From an uncultured Bacilli bacterium (lineage in GTDB: Bacteria > Bacillota_I > Bacilli_A > RF39 > UBA660), in assembly GCA_904374795.1 (NCBI GenBank), contig CAJFEV010000008.1, positions 1 through 39,436 of the forward strand: 39,436 bases of DNA. The letters run 5' to 3'. Of the stretch, positions 2,698-19,186 are shown in pieces. Position numbers and translations under genes: made by a program. Each line of letters opens with the position of its first letter. Position 1 is the stretch's first letter. The notes under the pieces were generated by a model. That model was not told the DNA's origin. It was given only the letters and a program-made list of their open reading frames with translations, and searched no databases.

Positions 2698-2721
2698 AAA
2701 AAAGGGAATAATTTCCCCTTT
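2694..2721 (-). terminator. Rho-independent terminator of the ABC transporter operon
   Basis: On the minus strand an AAAGGG/CCCTTT stem with a 9-nt loop is followed by seven T. The hairpin begins at the stop codon of the permease gene. Confidence 0.7.
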
Positions 2722-5290
2722 AAATGTTATCCTTTCTAATTGTTTCAATGATGTTTTGTTTATTAATTTTACTCATTGAATAACGCATGATAATATATAC
2801 TAAAACAAATACTGCAACGATAGAAATGATAGTTGCTGTAAGTGGGAAATGATAACCATAATCCAATTTACTTGCTGTTGCAAGATATACTAGATAAGAA
2901 CCTATTGAACCTAGTGCTACACCATAAATAAGTGCCTTTATTGAATAGAATATTGTTTCTAAATTAATCATCCTGTTAAATTCTTTTCTTGTCATACCAA
3001 CACTTTTAAGCATAGCAAATTCTTTTTGTCTTAATTCTAAATTAGATGTAATAGTATTGAAGATATTTGTTACACCAATTAGCGTAATAACTGCAATAAA
3101 TCCATATAAGAATATCGACATAAGCAAATAAATAGATCTTTCAGCTTGAACATTTTCATCCATATTTACTGCATTTAATTCTGGCACTTCATTATTAATA
3201 TCTAACGTTACTTGTGCTGGATCATCAGCATTAATTGTTAAAATATAAGGTGTAAAACTCAAATCACGATATTCTTCTTCTGATACGATTAAATATCCAC
3301 CATAATCCCAAAATCTTTCAAGTCCATCTGGTCTTTCATTGGTTACTTCTGCCACATCAATTTCGAGTGGGTTACCATTATAAGTACCTTTGATTGTATC
3401 ATTCTTTTTATAATTATAAATACCTCTTTCTATACGAACATTATCAGCATTAATATATTCATAATTATTTACTAGAACACCTTTATCTTTTGCATTATTA
3501 TAGTTTAGCCCTAATTCTTCTACATATTTTTTAAATCCTTCTTCATTCATACCAATAATATTCATTTGAAGTTTTTTATCACAATCAAGATTATATGTAT
3601 CTTTTCGCTCATCATAGCATCCTTGTTCTCTTAATCCTTCTTCCATAATATCTTTTCCAAAATCAGTTAATTTAGACAAATCATCTATTTCTAAATAACC
3701 CTCAGTAGTAAGAGAACTTTGATATAGCATTGTATAATTATCAGCACCATTAACTTTTAGAGCATCTTCCATTTTTGGAGTGTCCTCAAAACTTGCTGTA
3801 ACCATTATATTATAATCTAAATCATCATAATAAGTACTTGTTGCTTTGAAAGTATAATACATAAATGTATTCATGCTAATAAATACAAATACACTAACTG
3901 CTAAAGATATTACTGTTGTACGATATTTCTTCTTGCTTCTTTTTAAATTCTTATAAGCAATTACTCCACCAATACCAAATAGCTTTTTAATAATAGATGG
4001 TGTTTTTAATTTCTTTTGATTAACTTTTACATCATCATTACTTCTGATTAAATCAATTGGACTTACTTTACTGGCTTTTTTTGCTGCTCTAATACTTGAA
4101 AAATAAATTGTTACTATACCAAGTAATATAGATACTAAAATCGGTTGCCATGAAATGACACATCTCATTTCAACATTTTGAGTTATAAAATCTCCAATTA
4201 CACTATTTACAATGATAGTTAAAATGAAAACTGCTATATAACCTACTATAATTCCAATTGGAATACCAATAATACCAATCATTAATCCTTCTGTAATAAC
4301 ATTTCTTTTTATTTGTTTTTTTGTTGCTCCAGCACTTGCTAGCATTCCATAATTCTTTCTCTTTTCCATTACAGAAATATCAAATGAATTTTTAATACAG
4401 AATACACTTGTTCCAACGATTATTGCAAGTACAACTGCCATAATTGAATAAAGCATAGTTGTAGTTCCAGAATCAAATTTTAATGCTTGCCATCTAAGTA
4501 ATGAAGCATTAATGCTATATTCTTCAGTTGCATTAGGTGAATCATTTGTAAAAGTAGTTCCTAAAATTTCTGAAAAAGATTTTTCATAACTAGCTGGATT
4601 TTTTAGGCGTATATAAACACTTTGCTGTTTATTAGAATTATTTTCTAAACCAACCGTAAGACATCCAATCCCAGGATCTCCATGTGGATCTAATCTATAA
4701 TCTCTATCCATAATACCTACAATAGTAAATGTTCTCTCTGTTGAATTACTTATTACTTCATCTTCGTTATATACATCTTCTAGTGAAAGTGATGTTCCAT
4801 CTATTGTTGTTCTATTTCCAACATTTAAAGTAATCTCTTCTCCTATATCATATTTATCTCTATCCAATAAATAAAGTTCTTCACTTATTAAAATTTCGTT
4901 ACTATTCTTTGGATATTCTCCATCAAGTAAATCTATTGTTAGATTAGTAAAACTCTTTTCATCATCATAAGAGTATAAATGGATATATGGTCTTTCTTCT
5001 GTTGGCATATCAAATTTTGAATAACCAACATTATTTAAAACCTCTATTTCTTCTATATCACGATTATTTTCTAAAACTTTTATATCTTCATCCGTTTGAT
5101 TAAATAACTCAATATGATAATTACCTTGACTTTGAACGGTTGTCTGAACTAAAGCATCTTGAAGACTGATAAACATTCCAGCAACTGCACATATTAATGC
5201 CACAGATAGTATGATACCAATTAAAGTACCTATACTTCTTTTCTTATTTAGAAGAAGATTCTTTAACGATAGTTTATTTAAAACCTTCAT
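2720..5290 (-). CDS. Large FtsX-type ABC transporter permease (two FtsX domains)
   Basis: 856 aa. There is an N-terminal membrane segment (about 18-40), an extracellular region of some 220 residues, then a three-helix FtsX core (about 280-410). After a cytoplasmic linker (SPIDLIRSND) a second membrane anchor (about 460-480) leads to another extracellular domain and a second three-helix FtsX core ending near the C-terminus. This duplicated architecture is typical of Firmicutes MacB/Bce-like exporters that remove peptides or other antibiotics from the membrane. It is 2 bp downstream of its ATPase gene and next to a two-component system, so a resistance or peptide-export role is likely; the substrate is unknown. 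Confidence 0.9.
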   Translation of the reverse strand: MKVLNKLSLKNLLLNKKRSIGTLIGIILSVALICAVAGMFISLQDALVQTTVQSQGNYHIELFNQTDEDIKVLENNRDIEEIEVLNNVGYSKFDMPTEERPYIHLYSYDDEKSFTNLTIDLLDGEYPKNSNEILISEELYLLDRDKYDIGEEITLNVGNRTTIDGTSLSLEDVYNEDEVISNSTERTFTIVGIMDRDYRLDPHGDPGIGCLTVGLENNSNKQQSVYIRLKNPASYEKSFSEILGTTFTNDSPNATEEYSINASLLRWQALKFDSGTTTMLYSIMAVVLAIIVGTSVFCIKNSFDISVMEKRKNYGMLASAGATKKQIKRNVITEGLMIGIIGIPIGIIVGYIAVFILTIIVNSVIGDFITQNVEMRCVISWQPILVSILLGIVTIYFSSIRAAKKASKVSPIDLIRSNDDVKVNQKKLKTPSIIKKLFGIGGVIAYKNLKRSKKKYRTTVISLAVSVFVFISMNTFMYYTFKATSTYYDDLDYNIMVTASFEDTPKMEDALKVNGADNYTMLYQSSLTTEGYLEIDDLSKLTDFGKDIMEEGLREQGCYDERKDTYNLDCDKKLQMNIIGMNEEGFKKYVEELGLNYNNAKDKGVLVNNYEYINADNVRIERGIYNYKKNDTIKGTYNGNPLEIDVAEVTNERPDGLERFWDYGGYLIVSEEEYRDLSFTPYILTINADDPAQVTLDINNEVPELNAVNMDENVQAERSIYLLMSIFLYGFIAVITLIGVTNIFNTITSNLELRQKEFAMLKSVGMTRKEFNRMINLETIFYSIKALIYGVALGSIGSYLVYLATASKLDYGYHFPLTATIISIVAVFVLVYIIMRYSMSKINKQNIIETIRKDNI

Positions 5291-5292
5291 AT

Positions 5293-5964
5293 TTAATCCT
5301 CCTCAACAATTCTTCCATCTTCAATTTTTATGATTCTATCAGCTTCTTTTGCAATTTCCATATTATGAGTAATCATGATAATTGTTTGGTTATATTCTTT
5401 GTTAGATTTCTTTAATAATGCTACAATCTCATCACTTGATTTTGAATCCAAATTTCCTGTAGGTTCATCTGCTAGAATAATAGCTGGATTCGTAATCAAA
5501 GCTCTTCCAATAGAAACTCTTTGCTGTTGTCCTCCTGATAATTCATTAGGTAAATGTTTACTTCTATGTTCTAGTCCAAGTAATTCTAATAATTCTTTTA
5601 ATGTTTTCTTATCAACTTCTCTATTATCTAATTCTAATGGTAAAGTGATATTTTCTTCTACATTTAATATTGGAATTAAATTATAGAATTGATAAATAAG
5701 TCCTACTTGTCTTCTACGAAAGATAGCAAGTTTATCATCATTCATCTCATAAATATTTTTGCCATCAATAAAAACTTTTCCTTTTGTAGGTCTATCTACT
5801 CCACCAACTAAATGAAGAAGTGTTGATTTTCCAGAACCACTTGCTCCTACGATTGCAACAAATTCACCTTTCTCTACTGAAAAAGACACATTATCTAATG
5901 CAACTACTTTATTTTCTCCCTTTCCATATACCTTAGAAAGATTTTCAACTCTTAATATTTCCAT
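5293..5964 (-). CDS. ABC transporter ATPase of the MacB/LolD/Bce type
   Basis: 223 aa with Walker A GASGSGKST (residues 40-48), the Q loop (LIYQFYNLIP), signature LSGGQQQR (142-149), Walker B AIILADE and the switch His (MITHNME). The Phe-Tyr-Asn-Leu after the Q loop and the VG..DRPT segment are typical of ATPases partnered with FtsX permeases. The start at 5964 follows AAAGGAGG. The promoter just upstream carries a direct-repeat operator that is repeated exactly before the 46-aa gene. Confidence 0.95.
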   Translation of the reverse strand: MEILRVENLSKVYGKGENKVVALDNVSFSVEKGEFVAIVGASGSGKSTLLHLVGGVDRPTKGKVFIDGKNIYEMNDDKLAIFRRRQVGLIYQFYNLIPILNVEENITLPLELDNREVDKKTLKELLELLGLEHRSKHLPNELSGGQQQRVSIGRALITNPAIILADEPTGNLDSKSSDEIVALLKKSNKEYNQTIIMITHNMEIAKEADRIIKIEDGRIVEED

Positions 5965-5988: not shown

Positions 5989-6023
5989 ATTATATGATAA
6001 CCAAAATGACAAGTAAGTGACAT
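5989..6023 (-). promoter_or_regulatory. Promoter and direct-repeat operator of the ABC transporter (site 1)
   Basis: The -10 box TATAAT is at 5994-5989. Eleven bp upstream lies ATGTCACTTACTTGTCAT (6023-6006), which holds TGTCA twice with an 11-bp period, one helical turn, in place of a normal -35. The same 18 bp recur at 6280-6263 at nearly the same distance from a TATAAT. A class-II activator site for the OmpR-type regulator is the natural reading. Confidence 0.7.
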
Positions 6024-6041
6024 TTTGAAAAAAATAAAAAA

Positions 6042-6064
6042 AGATTAACTTCCAAAGTCAATCT
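6042..6064 (-). terminator. Rho-independent terminator of the 46-aa gene
   Basis: On the minus strand the stem AGATTGACTT/AAGTTAATCT closes on a 3-nt loop (one G-T pair, nine others) and is followed by a T-rich run. It lies 12 bp past the stop of the small gene and just before the operator of the transporter. Confidence 0.75.
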
Positions 6065-6075
6065 CAAATAAAATA

Positions 6076-6216
6076 TTATCTGACTAAAGCATATACAATT
6101 AAACCCACAAGTGCTACTACAACTAATATAGCATATATTGTAAACACTTTCCCAAATATTCTTATACCTTTATTAATTGTTCCAGCTAATTGCTCTGTGT
6201 TACTAACTTTTTTCAT
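6076..6216 (-). CDS. 46-aa single-pass membrane protein related to the membrane domain of the neighbouring Xre regulator
   Basis: The start at 6216 is chosen because AAGGAGG stands 5 nt before it; the frame extends further upstream but without a ribosome site. The protein begins MKKVSNTEQLAGTINKG and has one hydrophobic helix (about residues 24-44). The first 15 residues match the segment KVSNTERLAGIIIK just before the membrane helix of the adjacent regulator (6300-6869). It has its own promoter with the shared direct-repeat operator and its own terminator, so it is probably co-induced with the ABC transporter. It could be a small partner of the regulator or transporter. I know of no characterised homologue. 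Confidence 0.7.
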   Translation of the reverse strand: MKKVSNTEQLAGTINKGIRIFGKVFTIYAILVVVALVGLIVYALVR

Positions 6217-6246
6217 AAATTCCTCCTTCATTTTGGTAACAAATTC

Positions 6247-6280
6247 ATTATATATAATCAGAATGACAAGTAAGTGACAT
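6247..6280 (-). promoter_or_regulatory. Promoter and direct-repeat operator of the 46-aa gene (site 2)
   Basis: TATAAT at 6252-6247 is preceded after 10 bp by ATGTCACTTACTTGTCAT (6280-6263), identical over 18 bp to site 1 in front of the transporter ATPase. Confidence 0.7.
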
Positions 6281-6281
6281 A

Positions 6282-6307
6282 AAAAAAGATTAATCAAAAT
6301 TAATCTT
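6282..6307 (-). terminator. Terminator of the Xre-membrane regulator gene
   Basis: On the minus strand AAGATTAAT, a 4-nt loop, ATTAATCTT and then a T run form a perfect 9-bp stem. The regulator's stop codon lies within the hairpin. Confidence 0.8.
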
Positions 6308-6869
6308 CGCAAGTTCCACCATTATCTTTAAAATATTTTTCAATATTTTCTATACTATGGTCAATGTTTGCCCAATCAGTTATATCTTTTAAATATACAT
6401 TCATCTCTTTATTACATTCAGGGCAATCAAAATAATTATCATCTCCTATTGTAATAGTATAATTATTATCTTCAATAGAACAATTTAATGTAGCAGACTT
6501 TATTTCATTTACAGTTGTTACTTTTTCATTTGGAAAAACCTTAAATAAAATTATTCCTAAAACAATTAAAATAACATATATAATTCCAAAGACAGCAAAC
6601 ACTTTTAAAATCTTTATAATTATTCCTGCTAATCTTTCTGTATTAGATACTTTTTCTATTACTACATTTTTAACATCATTATCTAATAATTCATCAATAC
6701 TTACATTTAATGCTTTTGATAATAATTTTAATTGTTCTGGATTAGGAGTTGTTTCATTTAATTCCCAATTTGAAATTGTCTGCCTTGTTACACCAACCTG
6801 TTCTCCTAATTGTTCTTGTGATAATCCATTTTGTTTTCTTAACTTTAAAATATTTTCTCCGAGTTTCAT
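6300..6869 (-). CDS. Xre-family HTH regulator with membrane anchor and Cys-rich C-terminal domain
   Basis: 189 aa. Residues 4-65 form a Cro/CI HTH (GLSQEQLGEQVGVTRQTISN). A KVSNTERLAG linker leads into one membrane helix (about 90-111). The last 75 residues carry CPEC plus two further Cys (in ATLNCSIED and GGTCED), which suggests a small zinc-ribbon-like or disulphide domain outside the membrane. The start at 6869 follows AAAGGAG. A DNA-binding domain tied to the membrane suggests a one-step sensor. Its linker is duplicated in the 46-aa neighbour, which hints at an interaction. Confidence 0.8.
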   Translation of the reverse strand: MKLGENILKLRKQNGLSQEQLGEQVGVTRQTISNWELNETTPNPEQLKLLSKALNVSIDELLDNDVKNVVIEKVSNTERLAGIIIKILKVFAVFGIIYVILIVLGIILFKVFPNEKVTTVNEIKSATLNCSIEDNNYTITIGDDNYFDCPECNKEMNVYLKDITDWANIDHSIENIEKYFKDNGGTCED

Positions 6870-6941
6870 ATATTTCTCCTTTCGATGCTAATTATAAAAT
6901 AAATATACTTAACATTTCTACATAAGTTCTTTGGAAGTTTG

Positions 6942-7589
6942 TCAAAGAGTTTTAACATATATAATTATACATGTAAAATTTTTTATTTTTTGTGATGATA
7001 CTATCCAAGAGATAATATATATAACAGCACTTATAATGCAACAAATAACTAAAGTCATATTCATATTTTCTCTAACATTAAATATTTGATTTAATCCAAA
7101 TATTGATAATGCGAGTATTCCTGATGTTAAAGAATATGCTAGTATTGTTCCAATTATTGATTGCTCCTCTGGTAAAACAAAATTACAAGGCATTATGATA
7201 CTTCCACTTAAAAGAGAAATAATAATACTAAATCCAATAAATATGTTCATATAATTATCTGTTGTATTTGTAATTTTTAAAACTATTAAACATATTAAAG
7301 TACCAACAATTAAGCCTACGATTACCCAAAATAAATATGCAATATACTTACTCGATATGATTTGTTTTTTTGAAACTGGTAATGTTACAGAATATTGAGT
7401 CCATTTATTCTTTTTATCAGATATAATAGTTCCTGATACTGTCATACTTAGAGGAATCGCTACTAATATAATAACTACCGAAGGAGAAATCACAAAGGAT
7501 AATCCAATAGCCATTACTAGACATGATAGTAATGCAACTAATATATTAGCTTTAGTCGTATAAAAATCTTTTAAAAGTAAACCTTTCAT
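6942..7589 (-). CDS. ABC-2 type transporter permease
   Basis: 215 aa with about six hydrophobic helices and the typical ABC-2 segment with SDKKNKWTQYSVTLPVSKKQIISSKY between helices 2 and 3, common to permeases encoded beside GntR-type regulators. It starts 1 bp after the ATPase gene ends and is the last gene of the GntR-ATPase-permease operon. The substrate is unknown; related YtrABC-like systems respond to cell-wall antibiotics. Confidence 0.85.
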   Translation of the reverse strand: MKGLLLKDFYTTKANILVALLSCLVMAIGLSFVISPSVVIILVAIPLSMTVSGTIISDKKNKWTQYSVTLPVSKKQIISSKYIAYLFWVIVGLIVGTLICLIVLKITNTTDNYMNIFIGFSIIISLLSGSIIMPCNFVLPEEQSIIGTILAYSLTSGILALSIFGLNQIFNVRENMNMTLVICCIISAVIYIISWIVSSQKIKNFTCIIIYVKTL

Positions 7590-12163: not shown

Positions 12164-12385
12164 TTATGCCACAGTTTCTACTTCTTCTTGTTCTATTTTA
12201 TAAACATTGACTGCTTTCTTTAATTCTGGATCATAGTCAAATTGAACTAAATCTCCTTCATCTAATGTTTTAAAACCATTCATCATAATTTCTGAAAAAT
12301 GAACATATATATCATTTTCTACTTCCTCACTTTGAATAAATCCATACCCCAACTGAGCATCAAACCATTTTACTTTCCCTTTCAT
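12164..12385 (-). CDS. Cold-shock domain protein (CspA family)
   Basis: 73 aa, the usual single-domain size. RNP1-like KWFDAQLGYGFI and RNP2-like DIYVHFSEI are present, with the typical GDLVQFDYD. RNP1 in chromosomal Csp proteins reads KGFGFI, so this one is diverged (QLGYGFI). It would bind single-stranded nucleic acid as an RNA chaperone. The start overlaps the end of the upstream membrane-protein gene by 4 bp. Confidence 0.9.
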   Translation of the reverse strand: MKGKVKWFDAQLGYGFIQSEEVENDIYVHFSEIMMNGFKTLDEGDLVQFDYDPELKKAVNVYKIEQEEVETVA

Positions 12386-12987
12386 CTTCTTTTTCCCTTT
12401 CCTTTCGTCTTTAATTCATTTTCTCCTACAGCAATTCCATATAACTCATCAATCTTTGATGTAATAGAATTAATGATTAATAAAATAGCTAAGGTTACAA
12501 CTATATAATAAAAACTACTCATTAAACTACTAAATACTGCAAAATGTATAATTAATAAAACTATTTCTGGTATCAATAAAATTCCACATATAAACATCAT
12601 AATAATTTCTTTTGTACTTTTTATATTTTTCTTTTTGATTGCAATTAATGTTATTGCAAATACAAGTGTAATAATACATTTCTTTTTGATTGCAATTAAT
12701 GTTATTGCAAATACAAGTGTAATAATACATATATTGTAAACATCTAAAATAAAAGCAATAAACTTATTAATATTTATGATATTAACACTTGTAAGATATA
12801 TTAAACTTTGTGTAACCAGATTTACAAATATAAAAGTTGTTAATAAAAATATTATTTGCTTTACTACTTTTAAAATATTAGAAACTTTATGATATTTTTG
12901 CATCCTTTTATTATTGCCTTCGCCCTTCCAATACTCCATAGCACTTCTATCATATAAATCAGTATAAAACTGTTTTAGTTTTTTCAT
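12382..12987 (-). CDS. Hypothetical membrane protein with an internal 17-residue tandem duplication
   Basis: 201 aa. A soluble N-terminal part (about 40 residues) is followed by several hydrophobic helices. Residues about 86-119 are two exact copies of the 17-residue unit CIITLVFAITLIAIKKK, created by a perfect 51-bp DNA duplication. This adds a whole extra hydrophobic segment with a KKK cap and so may change the topology downstream. The function is unknown. The gene overlaps the MazF and cold-shock genes by 4 bp on each side, so it is part of one translationally coupled operon. Confidence 0.7.
   Translation of the reverse strand: MKKLKQFYTDLYDRSAMEYWKGEGNNKRMQKYHKVSNILKVVKQIIFLLTTFIFVNLVTQSLIYLTSVNIININKFIAFILDVYNICIITLVFAITLIAIKKKCIITLVFAITLIAIKKKNIKSTKEIIMMFICGILLIPEIVLLIIHFAVFSSLMSSFYYIVVTLAILLIINSITSKIDELYGIAVGENELKTKGKGKRR
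12629..12730. repeat. Perfect 51-bp tandem duplication
   Basis: Bases 12629-12679 are repeated exactly at 12680-12730, with no mismatch. The unit length keeps the reading frame and falls in a membrane helix of the 201-aa protein. Identity of both copies points to a recent event. Confidence 0.95.
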
Positions 12988-15833: not shown

Positions 15834-15856
15834 TAAAAAAGAGCTTAACGCTCTTT
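15834..15856 (-). terminator. Terminator of the element valS
   Basis: AAAGAGC, a 5-nt loop, GCTCTTT and then T6 on the minus strand. The hairpin begins at the stop codon of valS. Confidence 0.85.
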
Positions 15857-18275
15857 AATCATTAGAATCCAAATTCAACTCTACCTTATTTACTTTATAA
15901 TCTTTATCAACTACATTTAATTGTAAATTTTCGATAAATAAAGTGGCTTTAAAATCTTTGATTGAATTTTCTATTGCATCCTTCAAATCTTCGTTAACAT
16001 CTAAATCCAAAGTCTTAATCGGAGTTTTTAAAGAAACATTATTATTTGTTTTTTCTCCTCTTGCAATACTAATAATTTCAATAATTTGATCTCCTAATTT
16101 CATTTCTTTATCAAAACTATTATTTAATTCTTTAATTTCAGTTAAATGAATTGATTTCTTATTATGATATAATTCTTGATAAATTTCTTCAGTAATGAAT
16201 GGGAAATAAATACTAAAATCTTGTAATAATTTATAAAGTAAAGTATAAACTGTTTTTTGTCCAGAATATCTTGCCTCATCACCAAATTCTTCAGGACGAT
16301 ATAATCTATGTTTTACAATTTCAATATAGTTGTCACAGAAGTTCCAGAAAAATTTCTCTAGGTGATTCAATGCAAGTCCTACTTCGTATTCATCAAGATA
16401 TTTTAAAAATCCTTTTTCCATTTCTTGATATTTTCCTAATATCCATTTATCAATATATTCATAATTATTAAATTCTTTATCTTTATAATCTTGAAGGTGC
16501 ATTTCAATGAATTTGGATACATTCCAAATCTTATTTACTAATTTACGTCCTCTCTGTAGTGTTTCTTCACTATAAACAATATCTGTTCCTAGACGTCCTG
16601 AACCAGCCCAATAACGAATGACATCAGCAGAATATTGGTTAATAAGATTCAAAGGTTCTACTTTGCTATTACCCTTACTCTTACTAATTTTTTCACCTTT
16701 ACCAGCCATTACAAATCCAGAAATCATTACATTATCCCATGGTCTTTGTCCAAAGTGATAAAAACTTTTAACGATTGTATAAAAATCCCATGTTCTAATA
16801 ATTTCTGAAGCATTAGTTCTTAAACTCATAGGTTTTAAAATATCTTCATAGTTATCTTTTTCACCATAACGCATATTGATTAATGGTGTTACTGAAGATG
16901 TTGCCCAAGTATCCATTACATCTGTTTCAGGAACAAACTCAGTACATCCACATTTAGGACATTTATCTACCTTTGGTGAATCCACTAATGGATTAACTGG
17001 TAAATCTTCTTTTCTTGCAAATATTGGCTCTCCACACTCTTTACAATACCAAACTGGGAATGGAACTCCAAAGTATCTTTGTCTTGATATACACCAATCC
17101 CACATGATATTCTCAACCCATTCATTATATCTATTTTGCATGTGAGCTGGATGCCATTTAATTTCATTTCCAATTTTCAAAAAGTCTTCTTTATGATCCA
17201 TAGTATCAATAAACCATTGTTTCATAACAGAGTATTCTACTTCTTTACCACATCTTTCATGTGTTTGAACTTCATGCTCTAATTCTTCAATTTTTACTAC
17301 AAATCCACCTGCTTGTAAATCTTCAATAATTTGTTTTCTTGCTTCTTTAATTTTTACTCCTCCATAATTTGGAACACTATCTATAATTCTTCCATCATTT
17401 GTAAAAATATATTTTAATGGTAAATTATATTTCTTCCACCACTCAATATCAGTTTGATCTCCAAAGGTACAACACATTACTACTCCAGTACCTTTATCAA
17501 TAGCAACTTTCTCATCTGCCATAATTGGTACTTCTACATCTATAACAGGAATATGGGCTGTTTTACCAATTAAATGATTATGCTTTTCATCATTAGGATT
17601 TACAAAAACACATACAATAGCAGGTAATAATTCTGGACGAGTTGTTGCAATAGTAAACTCTTCTCCATCTTCTACAGTTTTAAAATTAATATAATTGAAT
17701 GTTGTTTTTATTGTTTTTGTTTCTAGTTCTGCTTGAGCAATAGAAGTTAAACATTCATTACACCATAATGCTGGTGATTCTTTATGATAGCAATGACCTT
17801 TATCAATTAAGTCTAAGAAAGAAGTTTGACTGATTTTAATTGTAGAAGGACTAACTGTCTTATAATGAATATCCCAATCTGTACTTACTCCCATTTTACT
17901 AAATAATTCTTGAAACTCTGCTTCATATTTATCTGTAGTTTGGTAACATAATTTTGAAAATTCTTCTCTACCAATTTCATGAGCTTTTTTTCCTTGCTCT
18001 TTTTCTACAAGACGTTCACTTGGTAATCCATTATCATCAAAACCAAAAGGATAGAAAATGTTAAATCCTCTTAATCTTTTGTATCTTGCAATCATTTCTG
18101 TTTGTGAATAAGAAAAAATATGTCCAATATGAATTTTACCATTAACTGTTGGAGGTGGTGTATCTATAGAAAACACTTTCCTTCCATCTGGAATAAACTT
18201 ATATATTTTATTCTCATTCCAATAGTTCAACCACCTTGCTTCTTTTTCTTGTGCATTATATTTTTTATCTAACAT
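15855..18275 (-). CDS. valS: Alternative (archaeal-type) valyl-tRNA synthetase carried by the element
   Basis: 806 aa, complete. Class I motifs: HIGH at residues 49-52 ([12 protein letters not shown]) and KISKSKGNS. The editing domain holds [17 protein letters not shown] and [15 protein letters not shown], a Rossmann core has [14 protein letters not shown], and Cys pairs (CNEC, CKEC, CPKC) suggest zinc knuckles. The DDNGLP and GTGVVMCC signatures belong to the archaeal-like ValRS group, unlike the host enzyme ([21 protein letters not shown]). The C-terminal coiled-coil arm of bacterial ValRS seems absent. Its ATG overlaps the stop of the interrupted host valS (ATGTTAG), with AAAGGA upstream, so it is translated from the host T-box transcript. 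It probably supplies all Val-tRNA synthesis. Confidence 0.93.
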
Positions 18276-19186
18276 ACTACATTTTCCTTTCTTTTTATAT
18301 TAAAAATACTATTAACTGCCATAACTATATCCTTGATAACCCTTATAATTACAGGATTTGTACCATCGGGTGTAGTCTTAACAACACCTGTTCCTTTTTC
18401 TGGATCGGCATGCTCATCTCCAATAACAGGAATTTCACGATTTACTATTGGTAAAATAACTTTTTTTCCAATATATTTTTTGTATCTTTCATCATTAGGA
18501 TTTACAGCAACCGCTGTATCTCCAAACATTGTTTCTGGACGAGTAGTCGCGATATCTAAGTATTCATCGCTATCCACAAAAGGATATTTAATATGATAAA
18601 ATGCTCCTTCAACGTCTTTATATATAACTTCTTCATTAGATAAAGCTGTCTTAGCCATTGGATCCCAGTTAATCATTCTCTCGCCACGATAGATTAATCC
18701 TTCTTCATATAGCCTAACAAAAACAGTTCGTACAGCTTTACTTAAGCCCTCATCCAAAGTAAATCGCTCTTTATTGTAATCTAGGCTAAGTCCTAATTTA
18801 GCCCATTGATTATGAATATTTAAAGCATACTCTTCTTTCCATTCCCAAGCAACCTTTAGCCATTCTCCTCGTTTCATACTTCTTGGGTCAATTCCTTCTT
18901 CACGAAGCTTTTTATCAACCTTTGCTTGAGTTGCAATTCCCGCATGATCCATACCAGGAACCCATAAAGCATCAAATCCCTGCATTCTTTTATAACGAAT
19001 CATAATATCTTGAATAGAAGTATCCCAAGCATGTCCTAAATGAAGTTTACCAGTTACATTAGGCGGCGGTATAACGATGCAAAAAGGCTTTCCATTATTT
19101 CTTCCTGATGCAAAATATCCCTTTTCTTTCCATGTTTCATAAGCATTTTCTTCTACTTCTTTTGGATTGTATTTTTTATCTAGCAT
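18269..19186 (-). pseudogene. valS: Host valS, 5' fragment interrupted by the element
   Basis: The first 273 codons encode a normal bacterial ValRS N-terminus: HLGH at 49-52, [14 protein letters not shown], the editing-domain [17 protein letters not shown] and [11 protein letters not shown]. After that come 32 codons of element sequence and a stop. A bacterial ValRS is about 880 aa, so the KMSKS half, anticodon domain and coiled coil are missing and the stub cannot charge tRNA. It is probably still translated, because it has GGAGG 7 nt before its ATG and couples to the element valS. The missing 3' part should lie beyond the far end of the element. Confidence 0.92.
18276..18370. other. Element-chromosome junction within valS
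   Basis: Host valS similarity ends with the codons for VKTTP (Pro273 at 18370-18368). In other bacteria this is followed by AHD. Here the frame continues with 32 unrelated codons to TAG at 18269. The first 70 bp of element DNA carry ATCCT and AGGAT arms facing each other (18331-18335 and 18351-18355), as may occur at a recombinase site. The exact crossover base cannot be fixed without the other end or an empty site. Confidence 0.7.

Follow-up and report, generated by a model that had tools for sequence, protein, structure and literature searches.

The locus raises the question why a protein of 46 residues with a single transmembrane (TM) helix shares a motif and a membrane helix with the helix-turn-helix (HTH) membrane regulator encoded beside it, and what such a protein might do. 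The window, that is the whole stretch of DNA that was analysed, is 39,436 nucleotides long. On its minus strand the gene of the regulator (189 residues, 6300–6869) is followed by the ORF of the 46-residue protein (MKKVSNTEQLAGTINKGIRIFGKVFTIYAILVVVALVGLIVYALVR, 6076–6216, ATG at 6216), and then by genes for an ABC transporter ATPase of the LolD/MacB type (5293–5964), an ABC permease with FtsX and MacB_PCD domains (2720–5290), an OmpR-family response regulator (Response_reg and Trans_reg_C, 2001–2663) and a histidine kinase (HisKA and HATPase_c, 800–2017), all four assigned by family profiles. The control elements described below for these genes lie on the same strand.

The 46-residue ORF has a consensus Shine–Dalgarno sequence (AAGGAGG, 6222–6228), a -10 hexamer (TATAAT, 6247–6252) and, further upstream, a response-regulator-type box, TGTCACTTACTTGTCA (6264–6279). 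The same layout is seen at the ABC promoter, where a second, identical box (6007–6022) was found in the same searches, followed by a -10 hexamer (TATAAT, 5989–5994) and the ATPase gene. One terminator-like hairpin closes the regulator gene and precedes the box (6284–6308; -6.7 kcal/mol, z -3.2), and another follows the 46-residue ORF (6041–6065; -9.4 kcal/mol, z -4.0). A consensus terminator scan called none, because it demands G+C-rich stems; folding supports both. Having its own promoter and being flanked by the two hairpins, the ORF is taken as a separate transcription unit. A TTG-initiated form of 78 residues was rejected; it would extend across promoter and box into the terminator hairpin of the regulator gene.

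The sequence-only reading had proposed that KVSNTE(R/Q)LAG and the helix after it are common to the two proteins and that the smaller one is the membrane part of a regulator standing alone, and both points were borne out. In a search of this genome, KVSNTE(Q/R)LAG and the next membrane helix aligned with 45% identity over 38 residues (E 1.7e-5), and the Smith–Waterman score of 85 exceeded the maximum of 63 reached in 2,000 shuffles in which each half retained its composition. V-S-N-T-E-x-L-A was invariant in all 16 family members aligned, the stand-alone copy included. Neither Pfam nor NCBIfam gave a family above cut-off for the 46-residue protein. Its chain ends within or directly after the TM helix, with almost nothing and no domain beyond it, and contains no cysteine. 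By homology, the protein corresponds to the linker and membrane helix of the regulator family, standing on their own and without the HTH, and its gene adjoins that of a regulator under a different promoter.

The 189-residue regulator is membrane-anchored and consists of an HTH_3 domain (1.1e-19), a linker/TM helix and a Cys-containing C-terminal domain; its hydropathy reaches 3.18 over 19 residues, from residue 90, at a single TM segment. Fold and structure searches placed its HTH closest to the P22 c2 repressor and SinR, and the matches to solved structures and folds were to the HTH half only. In an AlphaFold2 model made from 13 sequences (mean pLDDT 79.6, low in residues 61–80; pTM 0.35), linker and TM segment form one helix (residues 67–111) that contains the motif and leads out of the HTH domain into the membrane, followed by a small beta/alpha domain with the conserved Cys. 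This single helix would be a plausible place for pairing with a second copy of itself, the confidence of the model being low in residues 61–80. The regulator is the only intact member of its family seen in this genome. A second HTH-membrane paralogue of the same genome (L043 1286–1839; contig C38 of G000) carries a frameshift in an A-run just before KVSN, which leaves a 73-residue HTH protein without membrane anchor and could reflect a pseudogene, an assembly error or a slippage switch.

The promoter of the regulator gene (-10 hexamer TATAAT, 6891–6896) is without the TGTCACTTACTTGTCA box and has an element of its own. An element of about 50 bp (TGTTAAAAnnCTTTGACAAAnTTCCAAAGnnnTTTGGTAGATTTGTTAA) is found, near-identical, just before the -10 hexamer in 38 of 38 non-redundant HTH-membrane upstream regions; in the window it covers 6912–6958, with CTTTG/CAAAG half-sites, and its core (6917–6947) is a probable autoregulatory operator. 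In nine genomes the 31-bp core occurred about as often as there are HTH-membrane genes and was almost confined to them, the exceptions being one extra site with three mismatches and one genome without a match, and the promoters of the 46-residue ORF and the ABC genes are devoid of the element. This distribution suggests that the regulator probably acts mainly on its own promoter, with the element as candidate operator. The possibility that the element encodes a small protein (MLKLFDKLPK...) was dropped, since in its relatives the frame is soon interrupted by stops and variation falls on codon positions 1–2 and not on position 3.

A DNA-binding domain and a TM helix in one chain are the features of the transmembrane transcription regulators, a class that includes BcrR and has been reviewed (PMC10269533). 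As in BcrR, an N-terminal Cro/C1-type HTH is tethered to the membrane, with an ABC transporter nearby, and the HTH and linker start of the two proteins agree at about 39% over 92 residues. BcrR differs in having several hydrophobic TM stretches after the HTH, a linker of its own and no VSNTExLAG, whereas the 189-residue protein has one TM helix and the Cys-containing C-terminal domain. The conserved upstream element would be a candidate site for DNA binding from the membrane.

It had further been claimed that the 46-residue gene, and not the regulator gene, is under a stress-type operator. The asymmetry stands, the box being present before the one and absent from the promoter of the other; the label does not. 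With up to two mismatches allowed, TGTCACTTACTTGTCA has exactly two copies in the 1.30-Mb assembly, the one before the 46-residue ORF and the one before the ABC ATPase gene. Related ABC permeases were found in 96 of the 193 genomes of the order (E 1e-60), and a set of 30 loci was used for the promoter comparison; one promoter was cut off, so that 29, including that of the window, were readable. All 29 have GTCACTTnnnTGTCACTT-like repeats with an 11-bp period shortly before the -10 hexamer, and 0–2 of 200 shuffles scored as well. Repeats of this period before a -10 hexamer correspond to the layout of an OmpR/PhoB-type site. Because of this layout, and because the module includes a gene for a regulator of that type, the supposed stress-type operator is most likely the response-regulator box of the adjacent two-component/ABC-exporter module itself.

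As the promoter of the 46-residue gene belongs to this module, an effect on the kinase or the transporter is almost as plausible as pairing with the HTH regulator. In the manner of MgrB, the protein might provide feedback to the histidine kinase or the ABC permease, or assist one of them, its regulator ancestry having supplied only a membrane helix; we regard this as a genuine possibility on the unlikely side. It would account for the box and promoter layout common to the 46-residue ORF and the ABC operon, the box being of the module's own type at 29 promoters. MgrB has 47 residues, belongs to the regulon of its own kinase and contacts even non-cognate kinases through its TM region (PMC8404706). 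The resemblance to MgrB of the PhoQ/PhoP system extends to a single TM helix, a length of about 47 residues and a gene controlled by the adjacent or cognate response regulator, a control that is putative for the 46-residue protein; this protein differs in having no periplasmic region beyond the TM helix, no cysteine and the ancestry of a transcription regulator. In genome G077 (contig C14; L162 about 2480–2590), an unrelated single-TM peptide of 31 residues, MKNKKINKILMYSVILLMFIIACNFIYLQLI, is encoded between box and ABC ATPase, at the head of the ABC operon and thus in the same regulon position as the 46-residue ORF. This too is in line with a peptide of the export module, but at 28 of the 29 readable ABC promoters, among them that of the window, the box is followed by the ATPase gene with no ORF in between. 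Moreover, the regulator-family motif is the most constrained part of the 46-residue protein while its TM helix varies, and hydrophobicity alone would need no such motif.

The constraint became apparent in a comparison with the closest relative of the protein, which is not its neighbour. The regulator L023 (same contig as G366:C13) has 116 residues and consists of HTH, linker and TM helix only; its C-terminal half is 76% identical to the 46-residue protein, with the first 17 residues identical and variation in the TM helix. In the 16-member comparison, the next best family member reached about 50% and the window's own regulator 39%. The similarity to L023 at the DNA level spans 6075–6224 of the window and so begins 8 bp before the ATG of the 46-residue ORF, an exact module boundary, and the L023 gene has an in-frame ATG precisely where this ORF starts, behind the ribosome-site-like sequence AAAGGAGTTTTA. 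A short HTH-membrane paralogue of the L023 type is therefore, on sequence grounds, a likely source of the segment, and the idea that the small protein copies the membrane segment of the regulator next to it had to be given up, the L023-type regulator being far closer (76% vs 39%).

The in-frame ATG might have a meaning of its own. Eight family genes have an in-frame ATG two codons before KVSNTE, and in 7 of them it is preceded by a ribosome-site-like sequence, which is found at this point in about 6 of the 47 family genes without the ATG; both ATG and ribosome-site-like sequence occur at the module start in L014, L015, L019, L023, L025, L029 and L072. Some family genes might thus make, besides the full regulator, an internally initiated membrane half that is free of the DNA-binding domain and antagonises the full protein, and in the window this nested product would have become a gene of its own, newly placed under the exporter's response regulator. 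We consider this quite improbable. Synonymous recoding indicated that the internal site needs rare codons in L029 and L072 (p about 0.005), and that most of the others could follow from the encoded residues (p 0.27–0.41). Since the gene instances are phylogenetically related, internal initiation is treated as a lead and not as a demonstration.

For the distribution of the family, 90 distinct module instances were counted at E 1e-12 or better. Stand-alone copies made up two of them, in the window and in G352 (L004), and a third was obtained in L005 by a separate search; all three loci are near-identical, and no stand-alone partner accompanies the other family genes, about 88 in number. The strongest form of the sequence-only reading, in which stand-alone protein and regulator co-occur generally, is accordingly wrong. 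In L003, a near-identical locus, the same regulator and ABC operon are present without the 46-residue ORF, the regulator hairpin leading straight into a single box; this locus has either lost the segment exactly from box to box or not yet received it. Genes of the regulator family do not keep to one neighbour: in L006 the same regulator is followed by a different two-component system, and among about 14 genomes that have both a permease relative and a regulator, the two are on one contig in the window and in G239. A plasmid search with the 46-residue protein gave no match, and a scan of viral contigs gave no stand-alone copy and one HTH-membrane relative, a regulator of this family encoded on a contig that IMG/VR lists as viral (L126 3764–4339). 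A 64-residue frame in G533 that had appeared to stand alone was rejected as a frameshifted HTH-membrane gene.

Three near-identical loci among about 90 family instances, together with the exact box-to-box difference in L003, are also what would be expected if the 46-residue ORF were a short-lived leftover of an HTH-membrane gene, caught behind a duplicated promoter on a mobile island and without selected role. Genes of this family are often broken, as seen from the frameshifts in C38 and G533 and the in-frame stops in G224 and G396. Against such an origin, ribosome site and promoter of the ORF are intact, and synonymous changes are in excess: 7 synonymous and 1 nonsynonymous change separate the window from L004 (binomial p 2.6e-4), and all three copies together show 7 synonymous and 3 nonsynonymous changes (p 0.002). 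In this small sample the ORF appears to be under purifying selection, which favours a functional protein; a neutral leftover is unlikely, and less likely than either pairing with the regulator or an MgrB-like effect.

For pairing with the regulator there is a precedent in Bacillus, where SinI and SlrA are small HTH-less relatives of the Cro/C1-type regulators SinR and SlrR, encoded by adjacent genes under separate control. In the case of SinI and SinR, pairing is the known outcome of such an architecture. SinI looks like a SinR from which the DNA-binding region has been cut off (PMC5864091). The 46-residue protein, in the same way, is homologous to the non-DNA-binding part of the neighbouring regulator and has no HTH, and by analogy it may work like a SinI antagonist. 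Unlike in SinI/SinR, its gene is under a two-component promoter and the shared segment is a juxtamembrane/TM helix and not a soluble helical hairpin, for which reason it is not considered a member of the SinI family.

The explanation that we tentatively prefer, and to which we give a little less than an even chance, is that the 46-residue protein is produced upon induction of the export system and, like SinI but embedded in the membrane, acts as a partner of the HTH-membrane regulator. The protein would be the HTH-less descendant of a short HTH-linker-TM regulator, its gene standing behind a second copy of the neighbouring module's response-regulator promoter. The histidine kinase would sense a cue, probably a cell-envelope-active peptide or drug, upon which the response regulator would switch on the exporter and the 46-residue protein together. 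Within the membrane, the latter would associate with the corresponding juxtamembrane/TM helix of the HTH regulator, through which the regulator is assumed to dimerise; mixed dimers would have a single DNA-binding domain, so that the regulator would loosen its hold on its own conserved operator.

Pairing is favoured by a homology beyond chance in which VSNTExLA is kept intact in the stand-alone copy, by the 76% identity and the common start point with the membrane half of L023, by the position of the gene beside the only intact family member of the genome, by the purifying selection, and by an HTH of the SinR/P22 c2 kind in the regulator, SinI being a truncated SinR without DNA-binding region. 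It is weakened by the restriction of stand-alone copies to three near-identical loci, with about 88 family genes managing without, by the intact regulator of L003 in the absence of the ORF, by the lower likeness to the adjacent regulator (39%) than to the L023 type (76%), and by a promoter that belongs to the two-component/ABC module and not to the regulator.

If pairing with the regulator were true, the locus would hold a membrane version of SinI/SinR, in which a two-component system calls up, when needed, a separate copy of the membrane helix of a transcription factor and this copy controls the membrane-held factor, and one short peptide would link one-component and two-component envelope-response systems. 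The origins of small membrane proteins are, to our knowledge, mostly unknown, and descent from regulators would be one simple way in which they arise. Membrane-bound one-component regulators with small co-components are already known, for instance ToxR and TcpP, beside which the small membrane proteins ToxS and TcpH are encoded (PMC10269533). Co-components of this type often carry a lipocalin-like domain outside the membrane (PMC10269533). The 46-residue protein shares with them the small size, the membrane location and the gene position next to a transmembrane regulator, but it is without a domain outside the membrane and homologous to the regulator itself. In the limited open-access set of literature that was searched, neither a stand-alone copy of a membrane regulator's helix under two-component control nor a KVSNTExLAG-type motif was found.

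The DNA around the 46-residue ORF has a history of its own. From at most 2635 to exactly 19186, the window is 96–97% identical to G352, a genome of another genus, whereas obgE on the same contig (25940–27214) is 73–79% identical to the window's own genus and 65–66% to the genus of G352. Because of this cross-genus identity next to an obgE that follows its own genus, the block carrying the 46-residue ORF is, by sequence comparison, one that moved horizontally between genera. Its end at 19186 is exactly the start codon of a truncated ValRS-like ORF (18269–19186), which is adjoined by a second, complete ValRS-like gene (15855–18275), and the block is a probable mobile island at valS. A tandem duplication of 51 bp (12623–12724) was noted in an ORF for a membrane protein of 201 residues (12382–12987), where it gives rise to an in-frame repeat of CIITLVFAITLIAIKKK.
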